A program made the translations under genes and the position numbers. A stretch of 64,000 bases of DNA from Cephalotus follicularis. Its lineage: Eukaryota > Streptophyta > Magnoliopsida > Oxalidales > Cephalotaceae. Location of the stretch: the NCBI GenBank assembly GCA_001972305.1, contig BDDD01000892.1, positions 7,710-71,709 of the forward strand. Direction: 5' to 3'. This document shows, in pieces, positions 1-57,675 of the stretch; position 1 is the first letter of the stretch, and each line of letters opens with the position of its first letter. The notes under the pieces are model-generated. The model was not told where the DNA came from. It searched no databases and saw nothing but the letters and a program-made list of their open reading frames with translations.

Positions 1-2
1 CA

Positions 3-204
3 GTCGACTGCCCATATGAACAGTCGACTGTCTAGTTTGAGTAGTCGACTGCATTGTGCAAACAGTCGTCTGCCTTGTGTTGAGTAGTCGACTGGACCCC
101 TGATTCAGTCGACTGCCTGCAGTTTGGGTTGAGTAGTCGACTGGCCCTGTTGTGTAGTCGACTGCCACCCCTTGTTAGTCGACTGGATTCTTGAAACAGT
201 CGGC
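3..204. repeat. Palindrome array, GTCGAC core at ~21-bp spacing (A LTR)
   Basis: Ten palindromes of the type CAGTCGACTG, eight with an exact GTCGAC core. Core starts are 3, 23, 44, 65, 87, 108, 136, 157, 178 and 199, giving spacings of 20, 21, 21, 22, 21, 28, 21, 21, 21. The sequences between palindromes differ from one another, so this is not a simple tandem repeat of a 21-bp unit. The solo LTR at 11884-12085 keeps the same spacing. Confidence 0.9.
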
Positions 205-1271
205 TGGTATGTCCTGTAGCTTTATGTTTTCATCAGTTTATTCTTCCGATGATCAGGGTCTATTTCTAAACATCGTTATGATTCTGTTTTATGCTCAAAA
301 TGAATTTTAGACCCTTATTTGAACATTGTTATGTTGTTTAGATTATTGTGCTAAGTGAAGAAAAATAAATTTACCGGATATTCGTAAGTTAATCTGTGGT
401 CGCATAAGGAACGAATTCTTCGTTCCTTGATACACTCTTACTGATTCGATTATGTTTTGAAAATAAATACAAATTCTTGTTTTGGGATATTATTCAGTTT
501 TATGAATATGCTTCCTTTTGGTTTATGAATTACGTATATTTGGATTTTAAAAATAAAGTCATTTGATATTTTATGAGGTAAATATTCAGACTTTATGAAA
601 TCAGTTATAAAGTGTTTACGAAAAGTTATGCAATCATCTCTTTATTGTGAAACTAAAGGAGTTGATTTTTCTGATTATGAAAGTATGTGAAACTATATCG
701 TTTGAGAACGATTTATGATAATGTTTGGGAAACCTTTTTCTATGTGTTTTAAATGATTTGATGAAATCATAGTTTTTGAAATGGTGAAATACTGAGTTTT
801 TTTTATAACCACCTATGGGGGTACCATAGGCATGCTGTGAGCCTGGCACGGGGGCATGACACTTTCCGTAACGGTGTGATTTGTTTACGGCGTCTCTCTG
901 GGATATCTTTTGATAGGATTTGGGATAGTGGCATATGGATCGATCCTAGTTATATGTTATTGGGATATGTTTTGGGATATGGGAATTGTATGTACAGTGC
1001 CGTATACTGCCATTCCATTTGGCAATGTGGGTGTCGCGAACCCCTTGCTACTATATGATATGTTATGGGTTTTGGTGCTCAGTTATGGATCCTATGTTTT
1101 GGAAAGGTATACTTTATGATTTCAAAGTTATGAACTTGGTTTATATGCTTTGCCGTGGGCATTTACAAAGTATGTTTAAACTATTTTATTGCTTAAGATT
1201 TCTGCTTTAAAGTACTTTTGAAATCTTCTTGCTTTAAAATATCGTTTACTGTTTTATATTCTATATTCGTA

Positions 1272-1308
1272 CTGAGGTTTGCTCAGCCGCGTTTTTGTTT
1301 CCATACGG
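1272..1308 (+). promoter_or_regulatory. Double-hairpin module in A LTR
   Basis: CTGAG (1272-1276) pairs with CTCAG (1282-1286) over a GTTTG loop; directly after it CCG (1287-1289) pairs with CGG (1306-1308). The module lies about 340 bp before the LTR end. Equivalent double hairpins with other stem sequences occur in the other LTR families here. Its role is unknown; it probably falls in the transcribed R/U5 part. Confidence 0.55.
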
Positions 1309-1618
1309 CAGGTTATCAGGAGCAAAGGGGCAATGTGTGATGAGAGTGACTCCCATATGTCTGAGGATCATCTAGCAGCTGATCCCTCTGTGTTTATGTG
1401 GTCGTAGTGGGACCCGTTTATTAAACAATATGTTAATTTGATTTATAACCTTTGGATTATGCATAAGTTTTAGTTTATGATCAGTTTTTATATGTTTTGG
1501 ATAAGCTTTAAACCATCACGTTTTTAATAAACATGAACGTTTTCAATATGATAAGTTATGTTAAGTTTCTGTTATATGCACCTGTGGCGACTCCCACAGC
1601 TCGGGGGTGTTACAGTTA

Positions 1619-10731: not shown

Positions 10732-11775
10732 TGTAATACCCTGCTTGCCTGTACGTATTTTTCTTACGGGTTTTATTTGTTTTTGTTTAAGTAATCGTAT
10801 GTTTTTCATTGGGTTTATGTTTTGGGCTGACTGATACCAGCCTTAATTTTGGGTATGTTGGTATGGGTATTTTGTTTGGTGTATTTAGTCATGTTATTAT
10901 TATTATTATTACAAAACCATTTTACAAAATACATAATTATTATCTTACATTTATATATAATTTTATTAAATTGTATTTTTATGAATTGTTTTAAAACAAA
11001 ATCCTTTTCTTTATTACTTTCCTTCTCCCTCTCAAACTCTCTCTCTCCCGTATCCCACTCTTTCCTATCTCCCTTTCCCTCACAACTCTATCTCTTACCT
11101 TCTCATCTCCCCAAAAATCAGCCCTATTTCCTTATCCAGCAGATTGGAATTTACCTTTTTGCTATCCTTCCCGTTTTGGTCTCTTGTTGCTAAATATGTA
11201 TGTCAAAGCAAACGGGTCAGCCATCTCTCCTTGCTGTGATTGATGCCGAACCTGCCATTAGAAAGTCATTGTGTTTTTGGTGTTCTTACTTCATTAATCA
11301 GGTTAGTTTCTTAATGGTTTTAATGTAGAAATCATTTTTGGCAATGGTTGGTGTAGTTGGCAGGCTTTGAAATTTTGATGTCTTCCTCTCATTTTTCTTT
11401 TGATCAGCCACTATGTCATTCGAATTGGTGTTCCTGCAACTGATTTTGACATCCAACAGGTTGGTTTCCTATGTTGTTATGTCTTGGTGATTGGTTTTGG
11501 ATTGTTGCCATCAAAACTTTTGTGCATTGGATGCTAAAGGAGTAGTTTTGATTTCTACCTCCTGCTTTCTGTCAAAAATAATTCCTGTGGTTGTAACGAT
11601 CTGCAGTTACATAGGACATGTTATGTAATCTGGTTTTGATGCATGTGATCATCATAAATGGACAGAATTGAAAGTATGCAATTGTATGTTATGGTTTAAA
11701 GTCCCTGTCACCTTAAATAATTTTCTGTCAAAATGTCTTTGTCGAATTCTGTGTTGTAACAATGTTTTACATGCC

Positions 11776-11870
11776 AAAAAAAATAATTTAAAAAATAAAA
11801 AAAATAATGAAAAAAAAAAAAAAAAAAATAGATAGAAAAAATAAAAAAAAAAAAAAAAAAAAAAAAATAA
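11776..11870. repeat. Poly-A-rich tract in the solo LTR
   Basis: About 95 bp of nearly pure A with scattered T and G, just before the palindrome array. In this family the array directly follows it. It is low-complexity sequence and its length is probably unstable; an open frame read from it on the minus strand is not a gene. Confidence 0.9.
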
Positions 11871-11883
11871 AACACCCAGAACA

Positions 11884-12085
11884 GTAGACTGCCCATATGA
11901 ACAGTCGACTGTCTAGTTTGAGTAGTCGACTGCATTGTGCAAACAGTCGACTGCCTTGTGTTGAGTAGTCGACTGGACCCCTGATTCAGTCGACTGCCTG
12001 CAGTTTGGGTTGAGTAGTCGACTGGCCCTGTTGTGTAGTCGACTGCCACCCCTTGTTAGTCGACTGGATTCTTGAAACAGTCGGC
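11884..12085. repeat. Palindrome array, GTCGAC core at ~21-bp spacing (solo LTR)
   Basis: Ten core sites at 11884, 11904, 11925, 11946, 11968, 11989, 12017, 12038, 12059 and 12080, with spacings 20, 21, 21, 22, 21, 28, 21, 21, 21, identical to those in the A LTR. Eight cores are exact GTCGAC. The array starts about 1.15 kb into the LTR. Confidence 0.9.
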
Positions 12086-13153
12086 TGGTATGTCCTGTAG
12101 CTTTATGTTTTCATCTGTTTATTCTTCCGATGATCCGGGTCTATTTCTAAACATCGTTATGATTCTGTTTTATGCTCAAAATGAATTTTAGACCTTTATT
12201 TGAACATTGTTATGTTGTTTAGATTATTGTGCTACGTGAAGCAAAATAAATTTACCGGATATTCGTAAGTTAATCTGTGGTCGCATAAGGCACGGATTCT
12301 TCGTTCCTTGATACACTCTTACTGATTCGATTTTGTTTTGAAAATAAATACATATTCTTGTTTTGGGATATTATTCAGTTTTATGAATATGCTTCCTTTT
12401 GGTTTATGAATTCCGTATATTTGGATTTTGAAAATAAAGTCATTTGATATTTTATGAGGTAAATATTCTGACTTTATGAAATCAGTTATAATGTGTTTAC
12501 GAAAAGTTATGCAATCATCTCTTTATTGTGAAACTAAAGGAGTTGATTTTTCTGATTATGAAAGTATGTGAAACTATATCGTTTGAGAATGATTTATGAT
12601 AATGTTTGGGAAACCTTTTTCTATGTGTTTTAAATGATTTGATGAAATCATAGTTTTTGAAATGGTGAAATACTGAGTTTTTTTTTATAACCATCTATGG
12701 GGGTACCATAGGCATGCTGTGAGCCTGGCACGGGGGCATGACACTTCCCGTAACGGTGTGATTTGTTTACGGCGTCTCTCTGGGATATCCTTTGATAGGA
12801 TTTGGGATAGAGGCGTATGGATCGATCCTAGTTATATGTTATTGGGATATGTTTTGGGATATGAGAATTGTATGTATAGTTCCGTATACTGCAATTCCAT
12901 TTGGCAATGTGGGTGTCGCGAACCCCTTGCTACTATATGATATGTTATGGGTTTTGGTGCTCAATTATGGATCCTATGTTTTGGAAAGGTATACTTTATG
13001 GTTTCAAAGTTATGAACTTGGTTTATATGTTTTGCCGTGGGCATTTACAAAGCATGTTTAAACTATTTTATTGCTTAAGATTTATGCTTTAAAGTACTTT
13101 TGAAATCTTCTTGCTTTAAAATATCGTTTACTGTTTTATATTCTATATCCGTA

Positions 13154-13190
13154 CTGAGGTTTGCTCAGCCGCGTTTTTGTTTCCATGCGG
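13154..13190 (+). promoter_or_regulatory. Double-hairpin module in the solo LTR
   Basis: CTGAG (13154-13158) pairs with CTCAG (13164-13168), immediately followed by CCGC (13169-13172) pairing with GCGG (13187-13190), then CAGGTTATCAGGAGC. It lies about 342 bp before the LTR end. Confidence 0.55.
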
Positions 13191-13496
13191 CAGGTTATCA
13201 GGAGCAAAGGGGCAATGTGTGATGAGAGTGACTCTCATATGTCTGAGGATCATCTAGGAGCTAATCCCTCTGTGTTTATGTGGTCGTAGTGGGACTCGTT
13301 TATTAAACAATATGTTCATTTGATTTATGACCTTTGGATTATGCATAAGTTTTAGTTTATGATCAGTTTTTATATGTTTTTGATATGCTTTAAACCATCA
13401 CGTTTTTAATAAAGATGAACGTTTTTAATATGATAAGTTATGTTAAGTTTCTGTTATATGCACCTGTGGCGACTCCCACAGCTCGGGGGTGTTACA

Positions 13497-18010: not shown

Positions 18011-18383
18011 CAGCCTTCCAACTTATTAGTTTCAAGAATTCGAGTGATTGAGGTGCAAACTGACATTATTGCAAAGTATACTCAACCTAAATGAAACAAT
18101 ATAGAGAGTTAGCAAATATTCCAATTTTTATGTTACTACTATAACACTTGGTCTTTAGTGCTTATGGTTTCTCCCACTATTCTAATCATATTCCACACTC
18201 CCATGTGGAATTCGGGAGATCTAACTCCTAGTGGGTATTGTAATCTATCTTAGCATATTATGGTCTCAGCTGTGGCATGACAAGCCATAATACCTAAGGT
18301 AGGTAGGCTCGCTAGCCAATTTACACTGCTTAATGTCCCATCTTCGTTGTGTAAACTTTTGCACCAGCGGCTAAGGTTAAAGC
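18011..18383. other. Non-coding stretch upstream of K's gag
   Basis: No coding potential or clear repeat edge was found. It may be the leader region of Copia element K, since it lies directly upstream of its gag on the minus strand, but no primer-binding site could be recognised. Confidence 0.4.
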
Positions 18384-18605
18384 GTCAACACTTTAGTACA
18401 TAAGTTTAAAAATCGAATTGCACACTTTAAGTGTCGACGCCTTTACACAAAGAGTCAGCGCTTTACCAAAACCGTCGATGCTTTTATCGATAGCATCGAT
18501 GCTTAACGCAACTTTGCTGAATATTCAAGTCGACGCTTAACGCTTTAAGTCGCGCATCTCAGCACAATAGTTCAAACCGTCAACGCCTAAGACATAAGCG
18601 TCGAC
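18384..18605. repeat. Decayed palindrome array, GTCGAC-like cores at 20-21 bp
   Basis: Cores of the type GCGTCGACGC at about 18384, 18412, 18433, 18454, 18474, 18495, 18529, 18549, 18579 and 18600. Most spacings are 20-21 bp, with gaps of 28, 34 and 30. Only some cores are exact GTCGAC. The flanking half-sites (GC..GC) differ from the CA..TG flanks in A, D and E. The array lies just upstream of a TATA-like sequence at about 18700. Confidence 0.65.
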
Positions 18606-19008
18606 GCTTAAGACGGCTAGCAGCAAAATTGGAAAGTTCAGATTTTTGCTAGTTTTGTAACTAGGTTATTTTCTTTCCGTTTTATAGCAGTTTTGTAAGT
18701 ATAAATACATTATAAGGCCGACCATAACAATGTGTACAAGCCAGTGACAAGCTTTGTATCCGCTTTCTTCAATTCTAGTTTTTATTACAATATTTAGTAG
18801 CTAAACTCTTAAGATTTTTAGGGTTAGAACAAAGACATTAGATTGTATTGATTAAACTCCATCAATAAAATCCTTGAAGTTTTGATTTACTCTTCAATTT
18901 TCTGCCTTCACACACACTTTGTCTGTCTGATTAAAATCCACAAACACTTTGTCGGTGAATAAGAACGTTGTTGAATGAATGGTTTTTAACGCAATCAATG
19001 GAGTCTGC
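18606..19008 (+). promoter_or_regulatory. Promoter-like A/T-rich stretch with TATA box
   Basis: A TATAAATA sequence lies at about 18701-18708 in a context like that of an LTR or gene promoter, about 100 bp after the palindrome array. No coding sequence follows before the 51-bp repeat. It could be the U3 end of an old LTR in plus orientation; boundaries cannot be set. Confidence 0.35.
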
Positions 19009-23888: not shown

Positions 23889-25217
23889 TGTCAGTCCCCG
23901 TTTTCACTTTTTTTTTTACAACAACATGTATAGATATCAATTATAATAATCCAGCCTTCAACAATTAACAAAGATGCATTAATCAAAGCGGAAGCATTTC
24001 ATAACCGGATTACAAAAATTATCCGCACGCATCCCATACTACGTGCTTACAAGTACAAACATAAGTTATAAATTACATGCCTGAAATGTAAATATAATAA
24101 ACGGAGTATGATTTTTTACAATACAACTTGACATCTTAAAGTAACAACCTTATTAAAACAGAAGTTCTCCTCAATAAGCTTCAGCAGCACTTGCCCGAAT
24201 ACCTTCACTTAATCTGAAATTGTAGGGGGTTAACCTTTGTCCTCACTCGGCTAAGTAAGAATAAAGCATGAGAATGAATATATAAACGTAAACATGCATG
24301 ACAGTCTATTTTGAAAACAACATGCATATATATGTATTCCAATATATATGATCAATCATGCCAAGTGAACATAAACAGTACAATTCAATAATACCGCACA
24401 AGGGTAAAATCAATCAATACAACGGTTGGGTGTCACATGTCGCTAACTCCTAGCACCAACTACGCACCACCTAACTATCACCCTACACTCCGAAGATGAT
24501 AGGTCAGGTAACAATTATTGCCGGCACTTAGCGGGCTGTTTAACTTTCAAAATCAGCATTGCAGATACGTTTGGTGGAAGTTCTAGCCAACTCCTGGCAC
24601 CTAGGACCACCTCCGTAGCCAGTGATGTCTCCTATCACTCGACTATGGAAACAAGCTAAGACAATCAATACAATCCATATATATATCTCATATGCAATAT
24701 AGAAGTAGTTCTCTTTTTAGAAAACGATTAAGAATTCAATAACAATACCTCACTTTTGGAGGGAACCGTAACAATATAATAGTGGTTCACTTATGGGCAC
24801 AAAATAGTAGGGGTACCTCTCATGGGAGGAAAACAATAAATCATTAACTGTAAGTTTCCATTTTGAAAACCATAATTGAAATCCTTATTTATGCATATAG
24901 CACTTTAAAATCCTTGAAATCAAGTGAAATAATAGTGGTTGTGAACACTTGATAGACATATAATATCTATAACCGTAGCATTATGCAGTAGCATAATTAT
25001 ATGGACAGTACCAATTCAAGGATTCAAACGAGGATCAATAGCACAACTATAGTCAATTTTATGCAATTCACTCAAGTATGCATAAGTCATTCAATTTCAG
25101 AAATGTAACTACATATGGCCAGGATTGATGGATATAATCATCCCATATGGAAGCCAATATGATTACATACAATTTAAGCCTAAACAGTACCTATTATCAG
25201 CAAAATATCTCTTAACA

Positions 25218-25326
25218 GTCGACTGTTCATAAGAATATCCGGCTATTTACATTGAGAAGTCGACTGTTTGTCCTTAACAGTCGGCTATTTACATTGAGTA
25301 GTCGACTGTTACGCTCAATAGTCGTC
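25218..25326. repeat. Palindrome array at ~21-bp spacing (E 3' LTR)
   Basis: Six sites of the type ACAGTCGACTGT at 25218, 25238, 25259, 25280, 25301 and 25321 (spacings 20, 21, 21, 21, 20). Three have an exact GTCGAC core and three a one-base variant. Spacer sequences differ from those in A and D, yet motif and spacing agree. Confidence 0.85.
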
Positions 25327-26056
25327 TGTTTTTCCCAGAATATCGACAAATAATAACTAACAGGAACAAGGTATGCATGTTCACAATCAAATTCAAACCA
25401 ATTAGTAGCTTGTAATCATATAGCAACTATCCATACATGATATACATACAATATCTTCAAAAACATGTCAATACCCCTACCTCAAACGCTATCCCAGAAT
25501 CCAATTGGATTGATTCTTCTCTTTGAGTTCCAACTTCAACTCAATCACCAAAAATCCAGAAATTAAGCTATAAAGGCATGTTGATAGTAGCTACATAGAA
25601 CTAATCAGTGGCTATATACTATTGTTTAACTATAACATCAACAATAATCCAGAATGGGAAGCTTACCAGGGAGAATCAAACCTTGAACCCTCTAACCTCA
25701 ACATGCAAGCTCCAATAAATTCTCCAGCACAATATCTCTCTCTTCTAGTGTTTTCTAGCACTCAGAATCCACTCGGAAATTGAATTCACAACTCCGTTTC
25801 AGTCATTAACTCATGTTTTCAGCCTTTTCTTGTCTCTCTCTTACATGCACTCTTTCTTCCCTCATTTTCTTTTTTGTTTTGCAGGTGTAGACACCTAAGA
25901 AACACACAATGAACACTAAAGCATCAGTGTTGGTAGCTGGTGACACGTTTTGTGTCACCTTTCCTTGTCATTTTGCCAACCAACACCTATCCTAAATGAG
26001 GACATGCCACTGTTCTATTTCACATGCCATGCAGGACACCTGTCCGAGCACGACCA

Positions 26057-26083
26057 GTCGACTGTTACCCTGTCACAGTCAAC
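26057..26083. repeat. Short palindrome pair (E 3' LTR)
   Basis: CAGTCGACTG core at 26057 and a variant GTCAAC core at 26078, 21 bp apart. This is the counterpart of the group at 33591-33664 in the 5' LTR, about 200 bp from the LTR start. Confidence 0.7.
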
Positions 26084-26275
26084 TGTCCTTCCATGAATCA
26101 ACTGTTAGGTGCTGATTCCGGTTCCTTAAGTTTATTTAAGGAACCCTGATTTCATTCAATTCTAAACCCATCAACGTAAACATTATTCATGATAATTGGA
26201 CACTAAATCTCAATATAATGTATATTTTATTCAACATTGTACAATATACATTAATTGAAAATTACGGTTATTACA

Positions 26276-31387: not shown

Positions 31388-32729
31388 TGTTGTCACACCC
31401 CGTTTTCACCTTTTTGTTTTTTTACAACAACATGTTTAGACATCAGTTATAATAATAAAGCCTTTAACAATTAACCAAGATGCATCAATCAAAGCAGAAG
31501 CATTTCATAACCAGAGTACTAAAATTATCCGCACGCAACCCATACTACTTGCTTACAAGTACAAACATAAGTTATAAATTACATGTCTGAAATGTAAATA
31601 TAACGAGCGGAGTATGATTTATTACAATACAACTTGACATCTTAAAGTAACAACCTTATTAAAACAGAAGTTCTCCTCAATAAGCTTCAGCAGCACTTGC
31701 CCGAATACCTTCACTTAATCTGAAATTATAGGGGGTTAGCCTTTGTCCTCACTCGGGTAAGTAGGAATAAAGCATGAGAATGAATATATAAATGTAAACA
31801 TGCATGACAGTTTATTTTGAAAACAACATGTATATATATGTATTCCAATATATATGATCAATCATGCCAAGTGGATATAAACAATACAACTCAAGAATAC
31901 CGCACAAGGGTAAATTCAGTCAATACAATGGTTGGGTGTCACATGTCGCTAACTCTTAGCACCAACTGCGCACCACCTAACTATCACCCTACACTCTGAA
32001 GATGTTAGGTCAGGTAACAATTACTACCGGCACTTAGCGGACAGTTTGACTTTCAAAATCTGCATTGCAGATATGTTTAGTGGAAGCTCTAGCCAACTCC
32101 TGGCACCTAGGACCACCTCCGTAGCCAGTGATGTCTCCTATCACTCGACTATGGAAACAAGCAGAGACAATCAATACAATCCATATATATATCTCATATG
32201 CAATATAGAAGGAGTTCTCTTTTTTAGAAAACGATTAACAATTCAATAGCAGTACCACACTTTTTGAGGGAACCGTAACAATATAATAGTGGTTCACTTA
32301 TGGGACACAAAACAGTAAGGGTACCTCTCCTGGGAGGAAAATAGTAAATCAACAGTAAGTTTCCATTTTGAAAACCGTAATTGAAATCCTTATTTATGCA
32401 TATAGCACTTAGTTGGTTCAAATCCTTGTAATCAAGTGAAATAATAGTAGTTATGAACACTTGATAGACATATGATATCTATAACAGTAGCATTATACAG
32501 CAGCATAACAATATGGACAGTACCAATTCAAGGATTCAAATGAGGATCAATAGCACAACTATAGTCAATTTTATGCAATTCACTCAAGTATGCATAAGTC
32601 ATTCAATTTCAGAAATGTAACTACATATGGCCAGGATTGATGGATATAATCATCCCATATGGAAGCCAATATGATTACATACAATTTAAGCCTAAACAGT
32701 ACCTATTATCAGCAAAATATCTCTTAACA

Positions 32730-32838
32730 GTCGACTGTTCATAAGAATAGCCGGCTGTTTACATCGAGAAGTCGACTGTTTTTTCTTAACGGTCGGCTGT
32801 TTACATTGAGTAGTAAACTGTTAGGCTCAATAGTCGAC
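32730..32838. repeat. Palindrome array at ~21-bp spacing (E 5' LTR)
   Basis: Sites at 32730, 32750, 32771, 32792, 32813 and 32833 (spacings 20, 21, 21, 21, 20), the same spacing as in the 3' LTR although several sites have changed bases. The array is about 1.0-1.1 kb from the LTR start, close to its position in A and D. Confidence 0.82.
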
Positions 32839-33590
32839 TGTTTTTCCTACAAAATCGATAGGCAATAACTATCAGACACAGGGTATGCATGTTCACAATC
32901 CAATTCAAACCAATTAGTAGCTTGCAATCATATAGCAACTATCCATACATGATATACATACTATATCTTCAAAAACATGTCAATACCCCTACCTCAAACG
33001 CTACCCCAGAATCAAATTGGATTGATTCTTCTCTTTGAGTTCCAACTTCAACTCAATCACCAACAATCCATAAATTAAGCTATAGAGGCATGTTGACAGT
33101 AGGTACATAGAACGAATCAGTGGCTATATACTGCTATTTAACTATAACATCAACAATAATCCAGAATGGGAAGCTTACCAGGGAGAATCAAAGCTTCAAC
33201 CACCTTGAACCCTCTAACCTCAATATGCAAGCTCCAATAAATTCTCCAGCACAATATCTCTCTCTTCTAGTGTTTTCTAACACTCATAATCCACTCATGC
33301 AACCTCTATTATAAGAGAAATCAACTTCACAACTCTGTTTCAATCATTGTTTTCCGCCTTTTCTTGTCTCTCTCTTACATGCACTCTTTCTTCCCTCATT
33401 TTCTTTTTTCTTTTGCAGGTGTACACACCAAAAAAACACACAATGAACACTCAAGCATCAGTGTTGTCAGCTGGTGACATGTTTTGTGTCACCTTTCCTT
33501 GTCATTTTGCAAACCAACACCTGTCCTAAATGAGGACATGCCACTGCTCTGTTTCACATTCCATGCAGGACACCTGTCCGAGCACGACCA

Positions 33591-33664
33591 GTCGACTGTT
33601 GCCCTGTGACAGTCGACTTTCCTTCCATGAATCAACCATTCGATGTTACCCTGTGACAGTCGGC
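33591..33664. repeat. Short palindrome group (E 5' LTR)
   Basis: Cores at 33591 and 33612 (21 bp apart) with a further GTCGGC core at 33659. They lie about 180-250 bp from the LTR start on the minus strand, upstream of the expected transcription start. Confidence 0.65.
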
Positions 33665-33837
33665 TGTTAGGTGCTGATTTCCGTTCCTTAAGTTTATTTA
33701 AGGAACCCCGATTTCATTCAATTCTAAACCCATCAACGTAAACATTATTCATGATAATTGGACACTAAATCTCAATATAATGTATATTTTATTCAACATT
33801 GTACAATATACATTAATTAAAAATTATGGTTATTACA

Positions 33838-34789: not shown

Positions 34790-36130
34790 ATTTGTCATCA
34801 CAGTCGCACTCCGCATGGACCTAACTGTCGTTGGTTACCAAGGTCTGATCAATCAAGTTAGTGAGTTGTTCAATATAATCTATGGTGAGTTTCTATACCC
34901 TAAAATTGATTTTCTCTTGCATATTTTATTCAGTTTATTTCTTGATTGATTAATTCATAATTTTCCATGTGTTATTTCTGTTAGTTTAATATTCCTCTAA
35001 TTTTGCATACTTCGCCTAGGTTAGATAGATTAAAATTAATTTAGCTTGTTTCCTAACGTTCGACTCGTTACTGCACAACCATGCACTTGCGGTATAAATT
35101 GAAAACATTCAAAATTCGTGAACATCAACCTTCTTTTATTCTCTTTGTTTGTTTACAAACTTTGAATAAAAATAAATTTAAATAAAATACATTTGAGTTA
35201 AAGAAGAGAATCTTATCCTAGAGAGGATTTTGAAAGATAAGAAATTATGCTGCACACAGGCAACCTTATTACAAACCAAATATAAAGCAATAAAATAAAT
35301 TAAGAAAGAAACCAAAACTAGGTGAAGTCCCATAGCCTACCATCATGCATAAGACATTCAAAGTATATATCCAATACAAACTTTAAATAAACACAAAGAA
35401 TTTTAATTTTCGATAGCTAATCGAATTAACTTTAAAAAGTGTGCCAAAAATTAGTATAACTCCCATTAGATTATTTAAAACCTAGCAATCTCTGGGTTTA
35501 ACTAACTTTTAGTTCCAAACTTTTAATAGTTCTATGCAAAGTGGCTACTGTTTGCCATAAGCGTCGGTGGTTACATGCTAAGCGGCGACAGTTTACAAAA
35601 CCGTTAGCGCTTAGTGCAACTATTCGCGCTTTAAGCAAATCGTCAAAGTTTAAATCCTTAAGTGTCGACAGTTTGTGCTATTCTGCTAGCGCTCAATGTT
35701 TCCGTCAGTGCTTGACTTTAGCACTTAGTCTAACTGTCGATGGTTTAAACAAAACTGTCGACGGTTAAACAGCAACAGAATAGCACTATGCAAACATTCA
35801 GCACTAAATAAATTTAAAACAACAACCAAGAATCAAAATTAAAGTCCAATTGGGATTAATTAGGAGGCACTGCTACCATTTTAAAGGAAAAGTTAAGGTT
35901 TGGGGACATTTTAGGCCTGAGGATCAATAGGTGTATAACTTTAAAATTAATCAAAACAAGCTCTAAGCTAAGGTACACCCTAAATTCTAAGTCCATAAAT
36001 GTCCATAACCCTCCTAGGATCTTTAATCAATACCCAATTAGAACAAAAACAAAGCAAAAAAGCTAAGGAAAAAAAACTAAGCAAGTCACAGGTTTGCCTA
36101 GCAAAACCGTGACTTGCATAACAAAAAGTT
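34790..36130. other. Locus sequence right of G: end of 51-bp repeat, A/T-rich non-coding DNA
   Basis: Begins with the second target copy ATTTG (34790-34794) and the rest of tandem-repeat unit 3 (to about 34833). The remainder is A/T-rich without a convincing reading frame. It includes a decayed palindrome array at 35563-35762. Its texture resembles the inner leader of an old LTR element, but no family could be named. Confidence 0.5.
35563..35762. repeat. Strongly decayed palindrome array, 19-22 bp spacing
   Basis: GTCGAC-like cores at about 35563, 35584, 35603, 35623, 35642, 35663, 35685, 35704, 35736 and 35757. Spacings are 19-22 bp with one of 32. Only two cores (35663, 35757) are exact; others are one to three bases off, such as GGCGAC, GTTAGC and GCTAGC. 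The regular spacing is the main support. Confidence 0.5.
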
Positions 36131-41480: not shown

Positions 41481-41796
41481 TTGTTGGTCCTTATCGGTGT
41501 TGAAAACAATTGAGAGGAAGTCCAACTAGGATATCCACGTCCAGACATCCCAATCGAGCCATCCTAACCATCCATTGAAAACCATTTAGAAAACCATTGA
41601 AAACCATTTCGATATTCATTTGAGAACCATTTCAATATCCATTTGAAAATTGGTTTGGAGATTAAAAGTATTAAAAGAGGATTTCCATAGGCTTCAAGGC
41701 CTTAGGGAAGCTTCCTACGGAATCATTTTGTAGATAAAACCATTTTGGATTGAAAACCATGTAAACAATGTGTTTAGGCTGAACAAAGTACTAAGC

Positions 41797-41882
41797 GTCG
41801 ACTAGTTTAGTTTAAAAGCGTAAAGTGTCGACTATTCAGTTTAACACACAAAAGCGTCGATAGTTAAAAAGAAAGTGTCGAC
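41797..41882. repeat. Small group of GTCGAC cores in J
   Basis: Cores at 41797, 41827, 41856 (GTCGAT) and 41877. Spacings are 30, 29 and 21 bp, so the helical regularity seen elsewhere is weaker here. Half-sites are of the GCGTCGAC and GTGTCGAC type, as at 18.4-18.6 kb. Confidence 0.5.
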
Positions 41883-42681
41883 AGTTTTGGTAGAAATATC
41901 ATTTTGTAAAACAGTTCACAATTCAGTGAAAACCATGTCCAAAACCATTACAAAGCCCCTTTTTAAGATTCATCCCATAGCCAATGAATTGAGAGAAGGC
42001 ACAAAATCATCTCCTCTCAATTCAATATATAACCCTTATACCATATGCCATATGCAATATTCACATCCATCCGTATACTCGTGTATATATATATACAATC
42101 ATGCATCCATACAATTACAATACGTACACATATCAATCCATATAACCATTTAGAATGCATGAATGCAAGTAAAATAGTGAAACCTACTCTAATGATCTAC
42201 CATTCGTATACTACGGTCCCATACCGGCATATACGAATGGGATCAGCTCAATAGTTATCTAAGCACGTACTATCGGAGCATATGTATACCTACCTATTAC
42301 CAATTGAGCTTGCGAGTTGGGAGGGCTTGTAGCAGAATCGACGAACTACCTCCTCCTATAAGCTTCACACACGATCACGATCACAGCTTCATCTTGTGTC
42401 AACAGAGATCTCTCTCTTAGCATCACTGCAACCACCATCACATTCCGTTACATTCTACACACAAGTAGCAAATACAAATCGTCATCACCGGAGTTCCGGC
42501 CAACACTTCGAAACTCTGACCACGCCATAAACAGGCTCCAAATTGGCCAATTTATGCACTGGTAGTCGTGACTCACCGTGAATCGCACAGTCACAGCTGG
42601 CAGTGAGTCAACTCACTGAGTTGACTTGCCGGACGTTCAACAGCTCTGGCCACCACCCAAAAATGCCACACCATCATCAGA

Positions 42682-42686: not shown

Positions 42687-43015
42687 TGTAAGAGCCCTAA
42701 TTATAATAAAATATTATTATTGGGCTTTGTAATTATTTTCCCACTTTTGGGCTGGGCCCGATAATTATGATGTATTTAATTGGGCCTTAATGGAAAATAA
42801 ATTATGATTTTGGGTCTTAATGAAATTTAATTTAAGACATTGGACTTAAGGAATTATTTTCCTCATTGGGACAATTTAATATATGATAGAATTGGAGAAA
42901 CATAAGTGAGGCCCAATTGGTGAAGTTAACCCAAGATGAGAGGCTGGCCCAAGCTTGGCAAAGCCTGCAATTGTTGAAGAGAGTCTAGGAATTTCTGGAC
43001 TCTTTCTCTTGTAAT

Positions 43016-43022
43016 TATATAA
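43016..43022 (+). promoter_or_regulatory. TATA box of C's 5' LTR
   Basis: TATATAA, 329 bp from the LTR start; the 3' LTR has it at 50583-50589. Confidence 0.65.
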
Positions 43023-44573
43023 GGCAGATGGTAGCCTTGGGACATGCTTTAGCCATTTGATCTTGCACAGTCCTTCTAGAGAAATCGGGAGAGTGAGAGA
43101 GTGAGAGGTAGAAGACAAATGCGTGCTGTCCAAGTAAGCCCCATGTCCTCTGCACTCCATCCCTATAAATACCCATTCCCTGGGGGCAAGAAGAGCGCAA
43201 GGAAGAAGAATTGGCAGAAAGCGTAGCAGTCCCCAGCCTTAAGGAAAGCCAGAATTTACGAGAGGAGGAGAAAGCATCTCCGTTTTCAACCTTACCCCAG
43301 GTAGGTTGCTCCATATCCGAGTGCCTACCAGCTACTGTGTATGCTTGATTGTTGTGTGTATTTTATTGCCTGCTTCTGTTATGTTGCTTATTGTACACTA
43401 TTGATTGTTCATACTATACATAAAGTAAGATATAGAAACTGTGTATCCACTTTTAATGATGAGGCATGCTTGGCACGTGGGCTTCCTTCTTCATTATTGT
43501 CGTGCGCAATCTATGGCATAAAACAGAAGCAACGCATGGAGGCGCCATTGCATGGATGCCGGGGGGTGGAGTTGAGCTACCCAGGCCATGCGCCTCGCCA
43601 TGGCGACTCGCCGAACCCTCACCGGCAGGCGACGAGCTCCCTCCATCGCCGGCGAGCAAGAGTCATGCGTCCAAGGCCGAAATGCATGACGCCCGAAGTG
43701 CCAAGACGCACTATGCATGGTGCCTGGGAAGTATATCAGAGACACCCAGGCGGGGAGTTGAAGAGATGAGTTGCTGAGGGCGACGTGCCGAGATGCCAAG
43801 GAGGAATGCATGGACAGCCGGGGCTGACGCAAGAACTGCCCGGGGATGAGCACAAAGGTGCCAGGGCTGAGCATGAACTGCCAGTGCTGAACACCAGGGG
43901 AGCAGTGCTGTGACGCCTGGGCTGAGCACATGAACCGCCGGGGCTGAGCATATGAGCTGCCAGGGAAGAATGCATGGGTTGCCAGCGGTGAGCAGCCAGA
44001 TCGAGCTCCACGGGCGATGCCCGGGGAGCCATACCTCCGGGGGTGTCGAACCAGGCGCCAGGGGAGCCGTCCAAGGCTCTCCCCTACCATGCAACCCTCC
44101 TTGGTCTTCCTCTCTCCCCTGCCATGCACACACTTGACTTCCCTTTTCCATGCATCCATGGATACTCGAGTGCAACGCACCATGACTACCATGGGTGTCT
44201 GGGCTCTTCCCTAGTGAGTGCCGAGGTGCCGAGGAGTGCTCCAAGCACTTCAACCTGTACCGGGCAGTGCGTTTATACCTTCCTGGACTTGAATGAGGAG
44301 CTTGCAATGTATGGTGAAGCCCTCTGTTCTACGTGCTGTGTATGAAGGCAAGAACGCCAACTTGCATGCGCCCCTTACACGACGTCGTACGCACTAATAG
44401 CGAATTATGGCCTTGCATGCGCACTAACTTCCATCTTATATATGTATAAGTAATATGCATTCTATAAAACCCTGGACCTACTAAGTGGATAAAAGGGTAC
44501 GCCAAGCAAGCCTATATGCCCAGGACTAGTTAAAGGAAAGAGATAATGAGATATATATAGATGGTCATAGGCA

Positions 44574-44800
44574 GGTGAGCCCTATAGGGGATAATTTCGC
44601 CGAGCAGGTGAACCCAAGGGGTGAATACCGTGAGGCAGGTGATCCTTGGGTGAATCCGTTAATGGTGAACCTAAAGGTGAATTCCGCAAAAGCTGGTGAT
44701 CCGAAGGGTGAACCGCAGAGAAGGTGAGCAAAGGGCGAATTCCGTTCGGTAGGTGAACCTGGAGGAGAATTCCGTGGGCTGGTGAGCCTAAAGGTGAGCC
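44574..44800. repeat. GGTGA short repeats in C's 5' LTR
   Basis: About eight degenerate units of roughly 30 bp alternating GGTGAACCC- and GGTGAATTCCG-type sequence. The same block is at about 60776-60995 in the 3' LTR and, reversed, at about 19655-19920 in G. Confidence 0.8.
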
Positions 44801-45006
44801 TTGTATATTGACCAGACCATAGGATGACCGGACTAGACTCCTCGGTATGTGATATGTATGGTTTGAGTAGATCAGTCTGAGTATAGAGGATGTTAATGAC
44901 TATGTTATGGATTGTGATCTGCATGCATATTTATTATTATTTTCTCCTCTGCTTTATTGTTTGATCCTCTGGTATGAGCCCGTGCATGTGGTGACCTACA
45001 CAACCC

Positions 45007-45102
45007 CCAGGGTTGCTGACCCATTCCTTTGAATGGGCCAGATACAGGAACAGGTAGTGGTGGCACATCGCAGCAGCAGCAAGGATAAAGAGTACAGTAA
45101 GT
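45007..45102 (+). promoter_or_regulatory. Double hairpin and donor-like GTAAGT in C's 5' LTR
   Basis: An AACCC/GGGTT stem, then CCCATTC (45020-45026) paired perfectly with GAATGGG (45031-45037) over a four-base loop, then CAGATACAGGAACAGG, and GTAAGT at 45097-45102 with CTCCTCC. In the 3' LTR the second stem is 61225-61231 with 61236-61242 and GTAAGT is at 61302-61307. Confidence 0.6.
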
Positions 45103-45347
45103 TTCTCCTCCTCGACAGTACGCTTCCATGGATAAAGTTGTAGAAAATAAATTATGTATTTTATTCTGGTTTAGCAGTGTATTTATATGATTCGAACTGG
45201 GTCTGTATATCCACACCTTAAATAAAAGATTATGGTTATGATTTATTTTAAGTTTTAAATTTTTATGCCTAATTATGATGACGTATGTACGGATTGCCAC
45301 ATGTCGAATCATGGGGCCCTTCCCACTGTTCGGGGCGTGACAGGTTT

Positions 45348-45360
45348 TGGTATCATAGCC
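45348..45360 (+). other. Primer-binding site of element C
   Basis: TGGTATCATAGCC five bases after the LTR end, close to the initiator tRNA-Met complement. Confidence 0.85.
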
Positions 45361-45418
45361 ATACTATTCTGGATATGCCGGGATAGGACCCTTGGCAAAG
45401 TGGAATTAAGATAAATGT

Positions 45419-46780
45419 GTGGATATTGACCGTTCTTTTATGTGGCCCAGAATGGAAGGACGACGAAGTAGAAGCGTACGAGGAGAAAGGTCTGGGCCGT
45501 CAGTTAGGCGTACCCGTTCAATTAGAGGTGCCGAAGAACAAGGAGATGTTAATGCACCTCAAGCAGTACAACCTGCTGCTCCTGCCAGAGAGGAACGAAG
45601 AGGATTCATGAGGAGAATGCGCGCTATGATAAACCAAATGCGTGAATTACTTCAAGGACAACCAGAAGAAGACGAACAACCACCTGCTGCCGTACCAGTT
45701 AGACGTGCAGCAGAAGCTTCTGAACAGACATCAGCAGCTCTACCAGCTAGGCGAGCTGTAGCCGCAAAGAGATCAGTCGACCAACCTTCGCGACGAGAAA
45801 ACCCTTTGATCGAATTTCTGAAGTTAAACCCTCTAGCCTTCACGAGAGACCCTGATGGTATATCGGCGGAGAGATGGTTAATGCAAATGGATAAGATCTT
45901 TCGAGTCATGGATTGTTCTGACTCTCAGAAGGTTGTGTTCGCAACGTATATGCTACAAGGTGAAGCTGAACACTGGTGCAAATGATTGAATCCCAGTGGG
46001 AGATATCTGGAACAACCTATTCTTGGGATACTTTTAAATCAGAGTTTAATGATCGATTCTATGCTGAGGTATAAATTGACAAGCGAGAAGCTGAATTCTT
46101 TGGGCTGACACAGGGAGATATGTCTGTGGCCCAGTATGAGGCCAAAATAATCGAATTATAAAGGATAGCTCCGTACCTGCTGAATACTGAGTCGCGAAAG
46201 GCTAAGAAGTTCCTTGCAGGATTTCGACCTGACATTCAAGAAAAGTTAGTGCCCCTACATCTACGATCCTTCTTTGAGTTATCTAATCAGGCACGTGAAG
46301 TGGAAGCCTTGGCTCAGCGGTTCCAGAGTTTAAAGATTCAGGCAGGCCAACGAAGACCTGCCCCTCCTGGTGATCAGTCAGGAAGGAGTTCTGGTAGTAG
46401 TAATAAATCCCGAAGGTCGGGATACCACAGCAGTCCAAGGCAGGGAGAATCTCCCCGCAGTATTGGTAGTCCCGCAGGACCTTCGAGGCTGGGAAGAAAA
46501 TCTCGTGGATCTCCACAGAGAAGACCCGGTCGTGATGCACGACGAAGGCGTCAGCGAAGGACAGCTTCGCAAGAAGGTTCCTCTAGACCTGCCGATGATG
46601 AACAGGTGTCTGTTGAACCCTGTATGCATTATGGTCGTACCAACCATGCTTCTGAAGATTGCTGGTGGAAAGATGGTAGGTGTTGGACTTGTGGAGCTTT
46701 AGATCATATATCTACTAAGTGCCCACAGAATCAGTTCAACCCGGGAGGACAAACGGGACAAAGTTCAAACCGACCATAGG
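45419..46780 (+). pseudogene. gag region of element C (fossil)
   Basis: Capsid-like part about 45800-46250 (WLMQMDKIFRVMDCSDSQKV, LQGEAEHW), a basic Arg/Ser/Gly linker about 46330-46590 and a zinc-knuckle part about 46618-46735 (CMHYGRTNHASEDC, CWTCGALDHISTKC). Gypsy-type Gag, more distant from A/D and E. Broken; fossil. Confidence 0.82.
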
Positions 46781-46839
46781 GGAGTTTCTAGCAAAGCCTC
46801 CCTAGCACTAGTTCACGTGGAGATCGTGGCAAACAGCCG

Positions 46840-49800
46840 ATGGGATCTACACCTACGGTACAGGGAAGAGTTTATGCTATGGATCGACGAGCTGCAGCTG
46901 GATCACCCTCAGTGATTGGAGGTATGGTTTACGTATCTCAGCTTTTGGCACGAACCTTGATTGATCCTGGCTCATCTCTTTCGTATGTTGCTTCTCATTT
47001 TATAAGTCACATGAATGTGAAGCCCGAGCCTTTACCTTTTACGATAGAGGTCAGCACACCGGTAGGAGAGTTGGTTACCTCCTGATGGGTGTGTAGATCT
47101 TGTGCCATTGAGATTTCTGGACATGTTCTTCTGCAGACCTTATAGTACTGCCGATGGGTGAACTTGATATGATTCTTGGTATGGATTGGCTGTCAGTATA
47201 TAATGCATACGTGGATTGTAATAGGAAGGTTGTAACATTTCATTTGCCAAGACAGTCTCCGTTCCAATTTATCGGGACGTTAGAGCATCAGCCAGTTACC
47301 ATGATATCTGCTATTCAGGTTGATAGACTCTTGAGACAGGGTTGTACTGCTTACCTGGCACATGTTACGGATGACAGTAAATGGACACCAAAATTGGAGG
47401 ATGTTCCTGTGGTTTGTGAATACCCGGATGTGTTTCCAGAAGAGTTGGGGTCCTTACCTCCTGAGAGAGATGTGGAGTTTGCTATAGATCTTTTACCAAG
47501 AACAGCTCCAATATCTACAGCTTCTTACCGAATGGCCCCTCCTGAGTTAAAGGAATTGAAAGTGCAACTACAGGAGTTGCTAGATAAAGGTTTCATCAGA
47601 CCCAGTGTATCCCCCTGGGGAGCACCGGTCTTGTTTGTCAAGAAGAAGGATGGATCCCTAAGAATGTGTATCGATTACTGGCAGTTAAACAAAGTGACAG
47701 TCAAGAACAAGTATCCACTGCCGCACATCGACGATCTGTTTGATCAGCTAAAGGGGTCTTCAGTATTTTCTAAGTTAGATCTGAGATCGGGATATCACCA
47801 GCTCCGAGTTAGAGAGGAAGATATTCCCAAGGCTACTTTCAGATCACGATATGGACACTACGAATTCGCGGTAATGCCTTTCGGGGTGACCAACGCCCCT
47901 GCAACATTAATGAGCTTAATGAATAAGATATTCAGTCCATATCTTGACCAGTTCATAGTGGTGTTCATAGATGACATTTTGATATACTCGAAGACCATGG
48001 AAGAACATGGTGAACACCTACACTAGGCATTACAGACTCTCAGAGACCATCAGTTGTATGCCAAGTTTAGCAAGTGTGAATTCTGGTTATCAGAGGTGAC
48101 ATTCCTTGGTCATGTTATATCCAGCGTAGGATTGTCAGTAGACCCTACAAAGATCGAAGCAGTGGAGAGCTGGAAATGACCAACTAATGTGATAGAAGTC
48201 CAGAGCTTTCTTGGCTTGGCAGGATACTACCGTCGGTTTGTAGAAGGCTTTTCAAAAATATCTACGCCTTTGACTAGATTGACGCAGAAGAATGTGGCTT
48301 TTGTTTGGGATGATGCTTGTGAATGGAGTTTCCAAGAGTTAAAGCATCGTCTGACTACTGTGCCAGTCCTAGCCTTACCAGAAGGCAACGAAGGCTTCAT
48401 TGTATACAGTGATGCATCAGGCAGTGGCCTGGGTTATGTTCTTATACAGAACGGAAGGGTGATCACATACGCCTCAAGGAAGCTAAAGCCCCATGAAGAA
48501 AACTATCCCACTCATGATCTTGAGTTGGCAGCAATAGTGTTCGCTCTACGTAAATGGAGGCATTACCTATATGGTGCCAAGTTCGAGGTGTATACCGATC
48601 ACAAGAGTTTAAAGTACCTGTTTTCACAGAAGGACCTGAATATGAGACAACGCAGATGGATGGAGTTACTTAATGACTATAACTGTAAAATACAGTACCA
48701 TCCAGGCAAAGCTAATGTGGTTGCAGATGCCCTTAGTCTCCGATTAGCTTGCCTAACCATTGCTCATATTCAGACACGTCCATGGCTAATGGACCGAATC
48801 CGTGAAGCTCAGAGCCACGATGGTGATCTTTTCAAGCTAGCTTTGAGTGAAGACGGAGGGTTAAAGACGGATTTCTCTATACAAGGCGACGGATTAATCC
48901 GATTTCAGGGCAGAATATGTGTTCCTAATGATAAGGAAGTGAAAGATGAACTGTTGTCACAAGCGCATCGTTCTAGCTTCTCCGTACATCCAGGAAGTAC
49001 CAAGATGTACCGGGATCTTAAGCTGGACTATTGATGGAACAACATGAAAAGAGAGATAGTCGAATATGTTGCTTCCTGTTTGACATGCCAACAGGTTAAA
49101 GCAGAACACCAAAGACCAGTAGCATTGTTACAGCCGTGCCTGTGGCACAGTGGAAATGGGAACACATAACGATGGATTTCGTGACAGGACTGCCCGGAAC
49201 AAGGAACAGCTGTGATGCTATATGGGTGATCATCGATCGCTTTACTAAGTCTGCACACTTTCTCGCCATCAAAATGAACTTTTCTCTAACACGGCTGGCC
49301 AATCTGTATATTGCTGAAATTGTAAGGCTCCATGGAGTACCAATCAGCGTGGTGTCTGACAAAGAACCCCCGTTTTACATCGCGGTTTTGGAGGAAACTG
49401 CAAGAAGCTTTTGGTACTCAGCTGAATTTCAGCACAGCTTTTCATCCCCAGACTGATGGACAGTCTGAGAGAATCATTCAAACTCTGGAAGACATGCTAC
49501 GAGCATGTGTTTTGGATTGGGGAGGTGGCTGGGAAGACCATCTACCGTTAGTGGAGTTCTCGTACAACAACGGTTTTCATGCCAATATTGGTATGGCACC
49601 GTTCGAGGATCTTTATGGAAGGAAGTGCAGAACCCCGATCTGTTGGTTCAAAGTGGGAGAACAGAGTCTTATGGGACCCAAGCTTGTACAAGACACAGTT
49701 GAGAAGGCAAAAGTTATCCGGGAAAGACTCCGTACAGCACAAAGCCGACAGAAAAGTTATGCAGACCACCGCAGGCGGGAGTTGGAGTTCGCTGTGGGAG

Positions 49801-50216
49801 ATCATGTATTCCTGAAAGTCTCCCCGACTAAAGGAATTATGAGGTTCGGCAATAAAGGAAAATTGACCCCTCGGTTTATAGGACCTTTTGAGATCCTGGA
49901 GAGAGTGGGTCCTGTTGCTTATCGACTCGCCTTACCACCCAGCCTGGCGGATGTGCACAACGTGTTTCATGTTTCGATGCTGCGGAAGTACCATCCTGAC
50001 CCTTCTCACGTTTTGCAATGGGAGCCTTTGGAGTTGAGAACGAATTTGAGTTTCGAAGAGATACCTATCCGGATTCTCGACCGACGAATTAAACAGCTAA
50101 GGAGCAAGACCATTCTGTTAGTGAAGGTATTATGGCAATATCAAGGAGTGGAAGAAGCTACGTGGGAAAGAGAAGATGATATGCAGGCCAATTACCCCCA
50201 GTTATTTTCATCTTAG
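46840..50216 (+). pseudogene. pol region of element C (fossil)
   Basis: Protease about 46930-47210 (LIDPGSSLSYVASHF, ILGMDWL); reverse transcriptase about 47500-48110 with FIDD at 47964-47975; RNase H about 48390-48760 ([22 protein letters not shown]); integrase about 48940-49960 with finger [14 protein letters not shown] and core [17 protein letters not shown] and [10 protein letters not shown] blocks; chromodomain-like tail about 50110-50210 ([17 protein letters not shown]). The order is Ty3/Gypsy chromoviral. A few breaks; fossil. Confidence 0.9.
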
Positions 50217-50217
50217 G

Positions 50218-50253
50218 AAATCTCGGGACGAGATTTTCGTAAGGAGGGGAGGA
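50218..50253 (+). promoter_or_regulatory. Hairpin and polypurine tract of element C
   Basis: AAATCTC (50218-50224) pairs with GAGATTT (50230-50236) over GGGAC; the tract AAGGAGGGGAGGA (50241-50253) directly precedes the 3' LTR. Confidence 0.82.
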
Positions 50254-51738
50254 TGTAAGAGCACTAAATATTAGAAAATATTATTATTGGGCTTTGTAAT
50301 TATTTTCCCACTTTTGGGCTGGACCCGATAATTATGATGTATTTAATTGGGCCTTAATGGAAAATAAATTATGATTTTGGGCCTTAATGAAATTTAATTT
50401 GAGACATTGGACTTAAGGAATTAGTTTCCTCATTGGGCCAATTTAATATATGGGAGAATGGGAGAAACATAAGTGAGGCCCAATTGGTGAAGTTAGCTCA
50501 AGATGAGAGGCTGGCCCAAGCTTGGCAAAGCCTGCAATTGTTGAAGAGAGTCTAGGAATTTCTGGACTCTTCCTCTCATAATTATATAAGGCAGATGGTA
50601 GCCTTGGGACATGCTTTAGCCATTTTATCTTGCACAGTTATCTTGCACAGTCCTTCTAGAGAAATCGAGAGAGTGAGAGAGTGAGAGGTAGAAGACAAAT
50701 GGGTGTTGTCCAAGTAAGCTCCATGTCCTCTGCAGTCCATCCCTATAAATACCCATTCCCTGGGGGCAAGAAGAGCGCAAGGAAGAAGAATTGGCAGGAA
50801 GCGTAGCAGTCCCCAGCCTTAAGGAAAGCCAGAGTTTACGAGGAGAGGAGAAAGCATCTCCGTTTTCAACCTTACCCCAGGTAGGTTGCTCCATGTCCGA
50901 GTGCCTACCAGCTACTATGTGTATGCTTGATTGTTGTGTGTATTTTATTTCCTGCTTCTGTTATGTTGCTTATTGTACACTATTGATTGTTCATACTATA
51001 CATAATGTAAGATATAGAAACTGTGTAGCCACTTTTAATGATAAGACATGCTTGGCACGTGGGCTTCCTTCTTCATTACTATCGTGCGCAATCTATGGCA
51101 TAAAACAAAAGAAACGCATGGAGGCGCCATTGCATGGATGTGGCAGGCGAAGGGCTCCCTCCATCACCGGTGAGCAAGAGTCATACGTCTGAGGCCGAAA
51201 TGCATGACGCCCGAAGTGCCAAGACGCACTATGCATGGTGCCTGGGAAGTATATCAGAGACACCCAGGCGCGGAGTTGAAGACATGAGCTACTGCGGGCG
51301 ACGTGCCGAGCTGCCAGGGAGGAACACATGGACAGTCGGGGCTAAGCGCAAGAACTGCCCGGGGCTGAGCACAAAGGTGGCAGGGCTGAGCACGAACTGC
51401 CAGTGCTGAAAACCAGGGGAGCAGTGCTGTGACGCCTAGGCTGAGCACATGAACTGCCGGGGCTGAGCATATGAGCTGCCAGGGAAGAATGCATGGGTTG
51501 CCAGGGGTGAGTAGCCAGACCGAGCTCCACGGGTGATGCCCGGGGAGCCATACCCCCGAGGGTGTCGAACCAGGCTCCAGGGGAGCCGTCCAAGGCTTTC
51601 CCCTGCCCTGCAACCCTCCTTGGTCTTCCTCTCTCCCCTGCCATGCACACACCTGACTTCCCTTTTCCATGCATCCATGGATACTCGAGTGCAATGCGCC
51701 ATGACTGCCATGGGTGTCTGGGCTCTTCCCTAGTGAGT

Positions 51739-51743
51739 GTCGA
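51739..51743. other. Target-site duplication GTCGA of D, left copy
   Basis: GTCGA before D; repeated at 60425-60429. C's 5' LTR has the empty-site equivalent GCCGA at the same place. Confidence 0.92.
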
Positions 51744-53937: not shown

Positions 53938-53949
53938 TGGTATCAGAGC
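53938..53949 (+). other. Primer-binding site of element D
   Basis: TGGTATCAGAGC six bases after the LTR end, complementary to initiator tRNA-Met. Confidence 0.9.
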
Positions 53950-57658: not shown

Positions 57659-57675
57659 GGTATGTTTGTGTTTGG

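Follow-up and report, generated by a model that had tools for sequence, protein, structure and literature searches.

Why do short palindromes built on GTCGAC recur at steps of about two helical turns inside the LTRs of several retrotransposons at this locus, and what would such arrays do? The window (the whole stretch of DNA analysed, 64,000 nucleotides) was judged from its content to be plant-like and rich in nested LTR retrotransposons. Following a Pfam scan of ORF pieces, Ty3/gypsy domains were assigned to elements A, C, D and E (RVT_1, RT_RNaseH and SH3_Tf2-1 in all four; RVP_2 in A, C and E), and a Chromo domain scored above the cut-off in D and just below it in C. By similarity, these four elements were called chromoviruses; the placement of A, D and E in Del/Tekay is a guess from LTR length and ends. 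Pol pieces of A and D were 86-93% identical, and those of A or D and E were 52-65% identical in the 10 pairs reported. A/D and E, which an earlier note on this DNA had called unrelated families, are all Ty3/gypsy. The second A-type LTR, taken in the earlier note as the 3′ LTR of A, proved to be a solo LTR with its own target duplication. All features are listed in Table 1.

Table 1. Elements, LTRs and repeat arrays in the window (positions in the window; steps in bp).
Feature	Position	Strand	Remarks
A 5′ LTR fragment	1..1614	+	LTR cut by window start; iMet-type PBS next, at 1619 (1 mismatch)
Array in A 5′ LTR	1..206	+	10 sites CAGTCGACTG/TAGTCGACTG
A-family solo LTR	10732..13496	+	GAATT target duplication on both sides
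Array in A-family solo LTR	11882..12087	+	10 sites; 1150 bp into LTR
Array c18	18380..18609	+	8 sites, AAGCGTCGACGCTT type; steps 49,21,20,21,34,50,21
Element E	33837 to 23889	-	flanked by GATCA on both sides
E 3′ LTR	23889..26275	-
Array in E 3′ LTR	25214..25351	-	7 positions of AACAGTCGACTGTT type; about 0.93-1.06 kb into LTR; steps in looser motif scan 20,21,21,21,20,21
Short second array, E 3′ LTR	26053..26106	-	about 0.2 kb from LTR start
E 5′ LTR	31391..33837	-
Array in E 5′ LTR	32726..32842	-	6 positions; steps in looser motif scan 20,21,21,21,20
Short second array, E 5′ LTR	33587..33668	-
Array c35	35539..35766		8 sites, AAGTGTCGACAGTT/AACTGTCGACGGTT type; steps 20,21,19,39,22,72,21
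Array c41	41793..41886		4 sites, AAGTGTCGACAGTT type; steps 30,29,21
Element C	42687..61547		TTAAC on each side
GGGCTGAGCAC repeats, C 5′ LTR	43843..43995	+	another word; steps 21,20,35,22,44; 1156 bp into LTR; weak
GGGCTGAGCAC repeats, C 3′ LTR	51317..51514	+	steps 22,23,21,20,35,22,44; 1063 bp into LTR
Element D	51744..60424		GTCGA on each side; nested within 3′ LTR of C
D 5′ LTR	51744..53931	+
Array in D 5′ LTR	52916..53078	+	8 positions (7 sites in scan, 52957 decayed); 1172 bp into LTR
D 3′ LTR	57713..60424	+
Array in D 3′ LTR	58880..59042	+	8 sites; 1167 bp into LTR; steps 20,21,22,28,21,20,21

The target duplication of D (51739-51743 and 60425-60429) lies in a C LTR and nearly equals the array core, which may be chance. 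At 6781-7497 on the minus strand, an open frame matching OVATE (PF04844, E 9.5e-26) is likely a host OFP gene, situated between the end of the A pol (6345) and another pol fragment. A second Ty3/gypsy pol fragment (8278-10512) was 75% identical in DNA to C; after it an LTR-like start, TGTAATACCC, was found at 10508, and the A-family solo LTR starts 224 bp on. An unclassified repeat was present in three copies (15851-16776, 36803-37348 and 38582-39499), which were 74-85% identical, one copy being reversed.

Sites were located by a scan allowing up to two mismatches to CAGTCGACTG. The phased GTCGAC arrays are real. The palindromes recurred every 20-22 bp with one 28-bp step at all four places in the A and D LTRs (A: 20, 21, 21, 22, 21, 28, 21, 21 and 21 bp), as the earlier note had reported, and the 20-21 bp steps that it gave for E were recovered in both LTRs of that element, where the scan itself returned five sites at 25216-25328 and four at 32728-32840. 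Counted per LTR, there were 10 palindrome positions in A, 8 in D and 6-7 in E, the last with 3-4 more in the short second array. A start of the array 1.0-1.2 kb into the LTR, also claimed before, applied to A and D and not to E (about 926-976 bp). The cores read GTCGAC within CAG/CTG or AASY/RSTT flanks. Symmetry was imperfect: in A and D, position 1 was C or T and position 10 was G in 35 of 36.

GTCGAC occurred 45 times in the window (mean 5.44 and maximum 12 in 100 first-order Markov shuffles), and 18 neighbouring pairs were 20-22 bp apart as against 0 in the same 100 shuffles, so the claimed spacing stood out from shuffled sequence within the window; these counts include LTR duplicates and related arrays and thus overstate the independent cases. 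When all 4096 6-mers were ranked by neighbours at 20-22 bp, the top five were pieces of the array word (18, 18, 18, 17 and 6 pairs), and the best 6-mer outside it gave 5 pairs among 93 copies. A comparison set of 66 IMG/VR stretches, each chosen for a pair of AGTCGACT words separated by 6-36 bp, contained 92 neighbour steps of at most 60 bp, and 5 of these measured 20-22 bp. Two of these stretches, L025 and L060, carried AGTCGACT at multiples of 12 bp, perhaps as coding repeats. A pol piece of A had no match in IMG/VR, and a three-site pattern in genome contigs returned 42 stretches, all from records titled as bacteria.

Three further arrays (c18, c35 and c41), found with the motif AANNGTCGACNNTT, and the short second array of E were absent from the earlier note. 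Counting the next weak match after c18 and c41, 10 of the 19 steps in the three arrays fell at 19-22 bp (9e-7 if an ad hoc rate of 4/47 is assumed). Site counts in narrower windows were 8, 7 and 4 for c18, c35 and c41, compared with shuffle means of 1.25, 0.96 and 0.83 and maxima of 5, 5 and 4 (500 shuffles); c41 alone is within chance because its 4 sites equal the shuffle maximum. Blastn at E 0.01 matched none of the 601-bp stretches around the three arrays to another of them or to A, D or E; matches to other repeats lay at the edge of the stretch for c35 and inside it for c41. When the arrays of A or E were compared with these three (12 comparisons), 16 or more of 400 spacer shuffles always scored as high. 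Among 28 comparisons, the one of c35 with reversed c41 hints at a possible relationship, its score being attained by 1 and 4 of 400 shuffles. A search for LTR ends around the three arrays gave no convincing pair. In core and period, c18, c35 and c41 agree with the other arrays, and they are regarded as lying in putative LTR-type sequences.

Downstream of c18, about 90 bp past its end, stands a TATAAATA box (18700). TATAWA candidates lay on the upstream side alone in A and on both sides of the array in E, and the D LTRs had none, so that a position before a promoter is suggested for c18 only. The idea that c18 is the 5′ region of a nearby minus-strand copia fragment was rejected, as the TATA and AATAAA of c18 point the opposite way. 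The LTRs of C carry a weak repeat of a different word, GGGCTGAGCAC, with steps mainly of 20-23 bp and at about the depth of the GTCGAC arrays of A and D; the repeat of the C 5′ LTR had no lag-21 autocorrelation peak.

Helical phase was computed at 10.5 bp per turn. Sites 1-6 of A lay within about 35 degrees of each other and sites 7-10 about 120 degrees off; D was likewise split, four sites and four, by about 120 degrees with some drift, and E stayed within about 70 degrees. Although the steps approximate two turns, the 28-bp step thus places the A and D sites on two faces, and with the 29-30 bp steps of c41 the claim that all sites share one face of the helix had to be abandoned. Steps of 28, 29-30, 34, 50 and 72 bp interrupt the phase. 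In motif-free autocorrelation over 51 lags, a lag of 20-22 bp came among the five highest in 2 of 7 controls and in 8 of 11 segments with arrays, the exceptions being the D 5′ LTR, the C 5′ LTR and c41.

Descent was assessed by alignment of arrays and of versions with shuffled spacers. The A and D arrays are homologous, their score being reached by 0 of 400 shuffles. Positions 11880-11975 of A aligned with 25214-25308 of E in window orientation over 96 bp, with identity in 41 of 49 core columns and in 31 of 45 spacer columns (41 of 50 and 28 of 45 for the array of the E 5′ LTR), and this score was reached by 0 of 2000 shuffles for the E 3′ LTR and likewise for the E 5′ LTR. When the one or two bases adjoining each core were left unshuffled, the score was reached in 0 or 1 of 2000 shuffles; when three were, it was reached in 91 of 2000 (133 of 2000 for the E 5′ LTR). 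The D and E arrays scored mostly within the shuffles (164 and 39 of 400 in the same orientation, 26 and 2 of 400 in reverse), and outside the arrays the A and E LTRs gave no blastn match. Because E is on the minus strand, the A-E block is inverted relative to LTR sense. It had been argued that spacers differ, so that no single unit was copied, and that A and E are independent. Neither view holds for A and E, which have a 96-bp block with its spacers in common, and the A and D arrays are homologous too; half of the A array and the E array seem to have been inherited or copied together with their spacers, inverted relative to the LTRs. An alignment of the A and E arrays as one inherited block with spacers, which the earlier note itself had named as speaking against its reading, was thus found for half of the A array. 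Given the block and the A-D homology, the arrays of A, D and E are probably of single origin. The array looks like a movable, orientation-free module, and its inverted sharing between otherwise dissimilar LTRs is as expected of an orientation-independent one.

Cores are kept while spacers drift, both between A and D and inside D, in agreement with the claim that motif and period are maintained and spacers left free. Between the A and D 3′ LTR arrays, 57 of 60 core and 37 of 64 spacer bases were identical (Fisher p 7e-7), and between A and the D 5′ LTR 54 of 60 and 36 of 64. Within single arrays, core and spacer identities were 0.90 and 0.23 in the D 3′ LTR, where the spacer value equals background, 0.80 and 0.24 in the D 5′ LTR, 0.90 and 0.30 in A, and 0.73-0.74 and 0.47 in E. 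Broken sites occur in the D 5′ LTR and E arrays, as expected of dead copies.

With confidence little better than even, we read the array as an orientation-free cis-regulatory LTR cassette bound by a sequence-specific host factor. The cassette would consist of 4-10 copies of a 10-14 bp GTCGAC-based palindrome at steps of about two turns, on which several copies of a host protein, sequence-specific and probably dimeric, would load side by side, and the loaded protein would drive transcription of the element or hold it open. Arrays would grow or shrink by units of about 21 bp, selection during element activity would preserve the core and leave the spacers to drift, and the cassette could pass between LTR families and work in either orientation, as the half shared by A and E in opposite orientation suggests. 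A platform for a sequence-specific factor predicts kept cores, free spacers, dyad symmetry, copy number, LTR location and orientation-free sharing; the similar array depth in the A, D and E LTRs was counted in favour of the cassette. The platform for a dimeric DNA-binding protein proposed in the earlier note keeps the conserved cores, the steps of about two turns and the recurrence in c18, c35 and c41, and loses the single face and the independence of A and E.

Action at the RNA level, in which neighbouring palindromes once transcribed pair into hairpins that yield small RNAs or serve packaging or dimerisation, is unlikely. It is still a serious rival, because in the A, D 3′ and D 5′ LTRs all five top-ranked 110-nt windows by folding stability overlap the array, the lowest reaching −49.0, −51.4 and −42.5 kcal/mol, respectively, against LTR medians of −15.4 to −17.1, and whole plus-strand arrays compared with 60 shuffles gave z values of −8.0 (A) and −7.6 (D 3′ and E 3′ LTR); such stability is itself a consequence of the palindromes, however. 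G-U pairing would tolerate C or T at position 1 and an A-to-G change at position 7, and excerpts of PMC10760457 describe a small-RNA excess at palindrome-rich Sirevirus LTR regions. The 20 one-mismatch cores, on the other hand, included 7 of GTCGGC and none of GCCGAC, with which it would pair; this speaks against pairing as the chief constraint, with G-U pairing as a caveat. The more stable strand in E is the antisense one, the lowest window of the E 3′ LTR lies at the short second array, and pairing between sites needs no identical palindrome at every site.

The palindromes, as CG flanked by CHG sites (CAGTCGACTG reads CAG-CG-CTG), might instead be a silencing target, with a host repressor or a methylation reader as the binder. 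In the source excerpts, structured palindromic TE regions of maize accompany small RNAs and methylation. Purely repressive sites should be lost, yet the A/D cores are kept, and CpGs survive more often inside the A array than elsewhere: 8 of 9 were retained in the D 3′ LTR and 6 of 9 in the D 5′ LTR, compared with 11 of 29 in the rest of the LTR (p 0.019 for the D 3′ LTR). CpG observed/expected was raised in the E arrays and not in those of A and D. Silencing could hold if the sites were also needed for expression; we consider it quite unlikely.

A neutral minisatellite of about 21 bp without function was judged improbable. Units are gained and lost (10 sites in A, 8 in D), the E spacers are still alike, and the window also holds tandem repeats with many other periods. 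Equal divergence of core and spacer, as expected of a neutral minisatellite, is approached in the A-E block, where the two barely differ (p 0.14 for the E 3′ LTR, 0.04 for the E 5′ LTR). It is not seen in A and D, whose core and spacer identities, within the D 3′ LTR and between A and D, would not arise from drift alone, and a purely neutral minisatellite fits the sequences poorly.

Very improbable is an anti-silencing platform like VANDAL/VANC, in which dense tandem motifs recruit a methylation-removing factor: in excerpts of PMC5735166 the style is alike (a short motif packed densely into noncoding TE DNA and multiplied by tandem repetition), but those arrays (YAGTATTAY) and VANC21 motifs run in one orientation in a DNA transposon that encodes the binder, whereas the motifs here are palindromic and the Pfam matches among 30 ORF pieces from several elements are retroelement domains plus one OVATE, although an own binder is possible because 10 of the 30 pieces gave no Pfam match.

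For a host factor binding the proposed LTR cassette, AP2/ERF-DREB is the leading named candidate, a tentative choice that we would expect to be wrong more often than right; it leads because GTCGAC fits the HvCBF1 motif, named as (G/a)(C/t)CGAC in the title of a cited reference, and because AaERF1/2 are said, in a single sentence, to attach to GTCGAC. Array sites have the (G/a)(C/t)CGAC fit expected of a CBF/DREB-regulated LTR. Grapevine CBFs are described as inactive once CCGAC is mutated, GTCGAC being absent from the variants shown in the part of the source used. The symmetric site of 10-14 bp conserved here counts against DREB/CBF, whose sites have 6-bp cores, and the partial descriptions of CRT/DRE and CBF/ERF sites compared contain no palindromic 10-14 bp array. 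Of 73 scored positions, 43 had GTCGAC, 20 one mismatch and 10 two or more. RYCGAC on a strand was fitted by 11 of the 20 one-mismatch cores (8 of 17 with LTR copies merged) and not by 9, a fit that carries little weight because it is post hoc and 4 of 6 transitions (4 of 18 single changes) would fit; CpG transitions accounted for 3 of the 20.

Repeated boxes in the LTRs of Tnt1 and Tto1 recruit host transcription factors, and the LTR sites for host stress factors in ONSEN, EVADE and Tnt1/Tto1 are fewer than those of the arrays here. LTR sites that recruit host transcription factors, as proposed here, are described with other motifs for the ONSEN heat element and the W-boxes of EVADE (excerpts of PMC12786077). 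Closest in form are the palindromic repeated motifs (RMs) of 13 Sireviruses (Ty1/copia), of which the grapevine RM, CGGTCGACCG, contains GTCGAC as the present arrays do; according to the excerpts of PMC2829016, RMs are absent from the classic elements of the Ty1/copia set and occur in 3-14 copies per 3′ LTR, mostly in its upstream half, with divergent flanks and variants around a common core. Many copies of a short palindrome in the LTR, with divergent flanks, characterise both (PMC2829016), and A, D and E each carry such a palindrome in at least 8 copies per element, as Sireviruses do. The arrays here are a variant of the Sirevirus kind and not members of it, because the host elements A, D and E are Ty3/gypsy instead of Ty1/copia Sireviruses and the core is GTCGAC instead of CGG-CCG (PMC2829016). 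They also begin 0.93-1.17 kb into the LTR, compared with 200-400 bp for Sirevirus RMs, and have a two-turn period that the excerpts of PMC2829016 do not mention.

Maize Ty3 elements are described in excerpts of PMC10760457 as generally without an obvious peak of palindromic structure. The variable 5′ region of Del LTRs (‘plastic CpG island’), in long-LTR Ty3/gypsy elements, is likewise a part of the LTR that varies fast in length and sequence; it has no CpG island in its eudicot group, and neither ‘palindrom’ nor ‘tandem repeat’ occurs in the text of PMC4029996. A match of the array word in PMC5146874, seen in excerpt, was discarded as primer noise. In a limited search of open-licence papers, no earlier report of phased palindrome arrays in Ty3/gypsy LTRs was found.

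Palindromic LTR arrays, described as a Sirevirus feature, are thus present here in Ty3/gypsy elements with a different core. Their occurrence in Ty3/gypsy elements, a half-array that two of the LTR families share in inverted orientation, and a recurrence of word and period in LTR-type sequences with no detected similarity suggest that docking strips for one host factor may be exchanged among plant retrotransposons or arise in them anew. A wider reading, which we hold to be rather doubtful, is that many LTR families of this plant exploit a single host factor by means of a modular cassette of palindromes, which Ty3/gypsy families would have passed to one another, inverted in the case of A and E, with c18, c35 and c41 building phased GTCGAC arrays of their own; if true, LTRs would constitute a distributed platform for one host factor across the genome. 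The many clean repeated sites should ease experimental identification of the putative factor.
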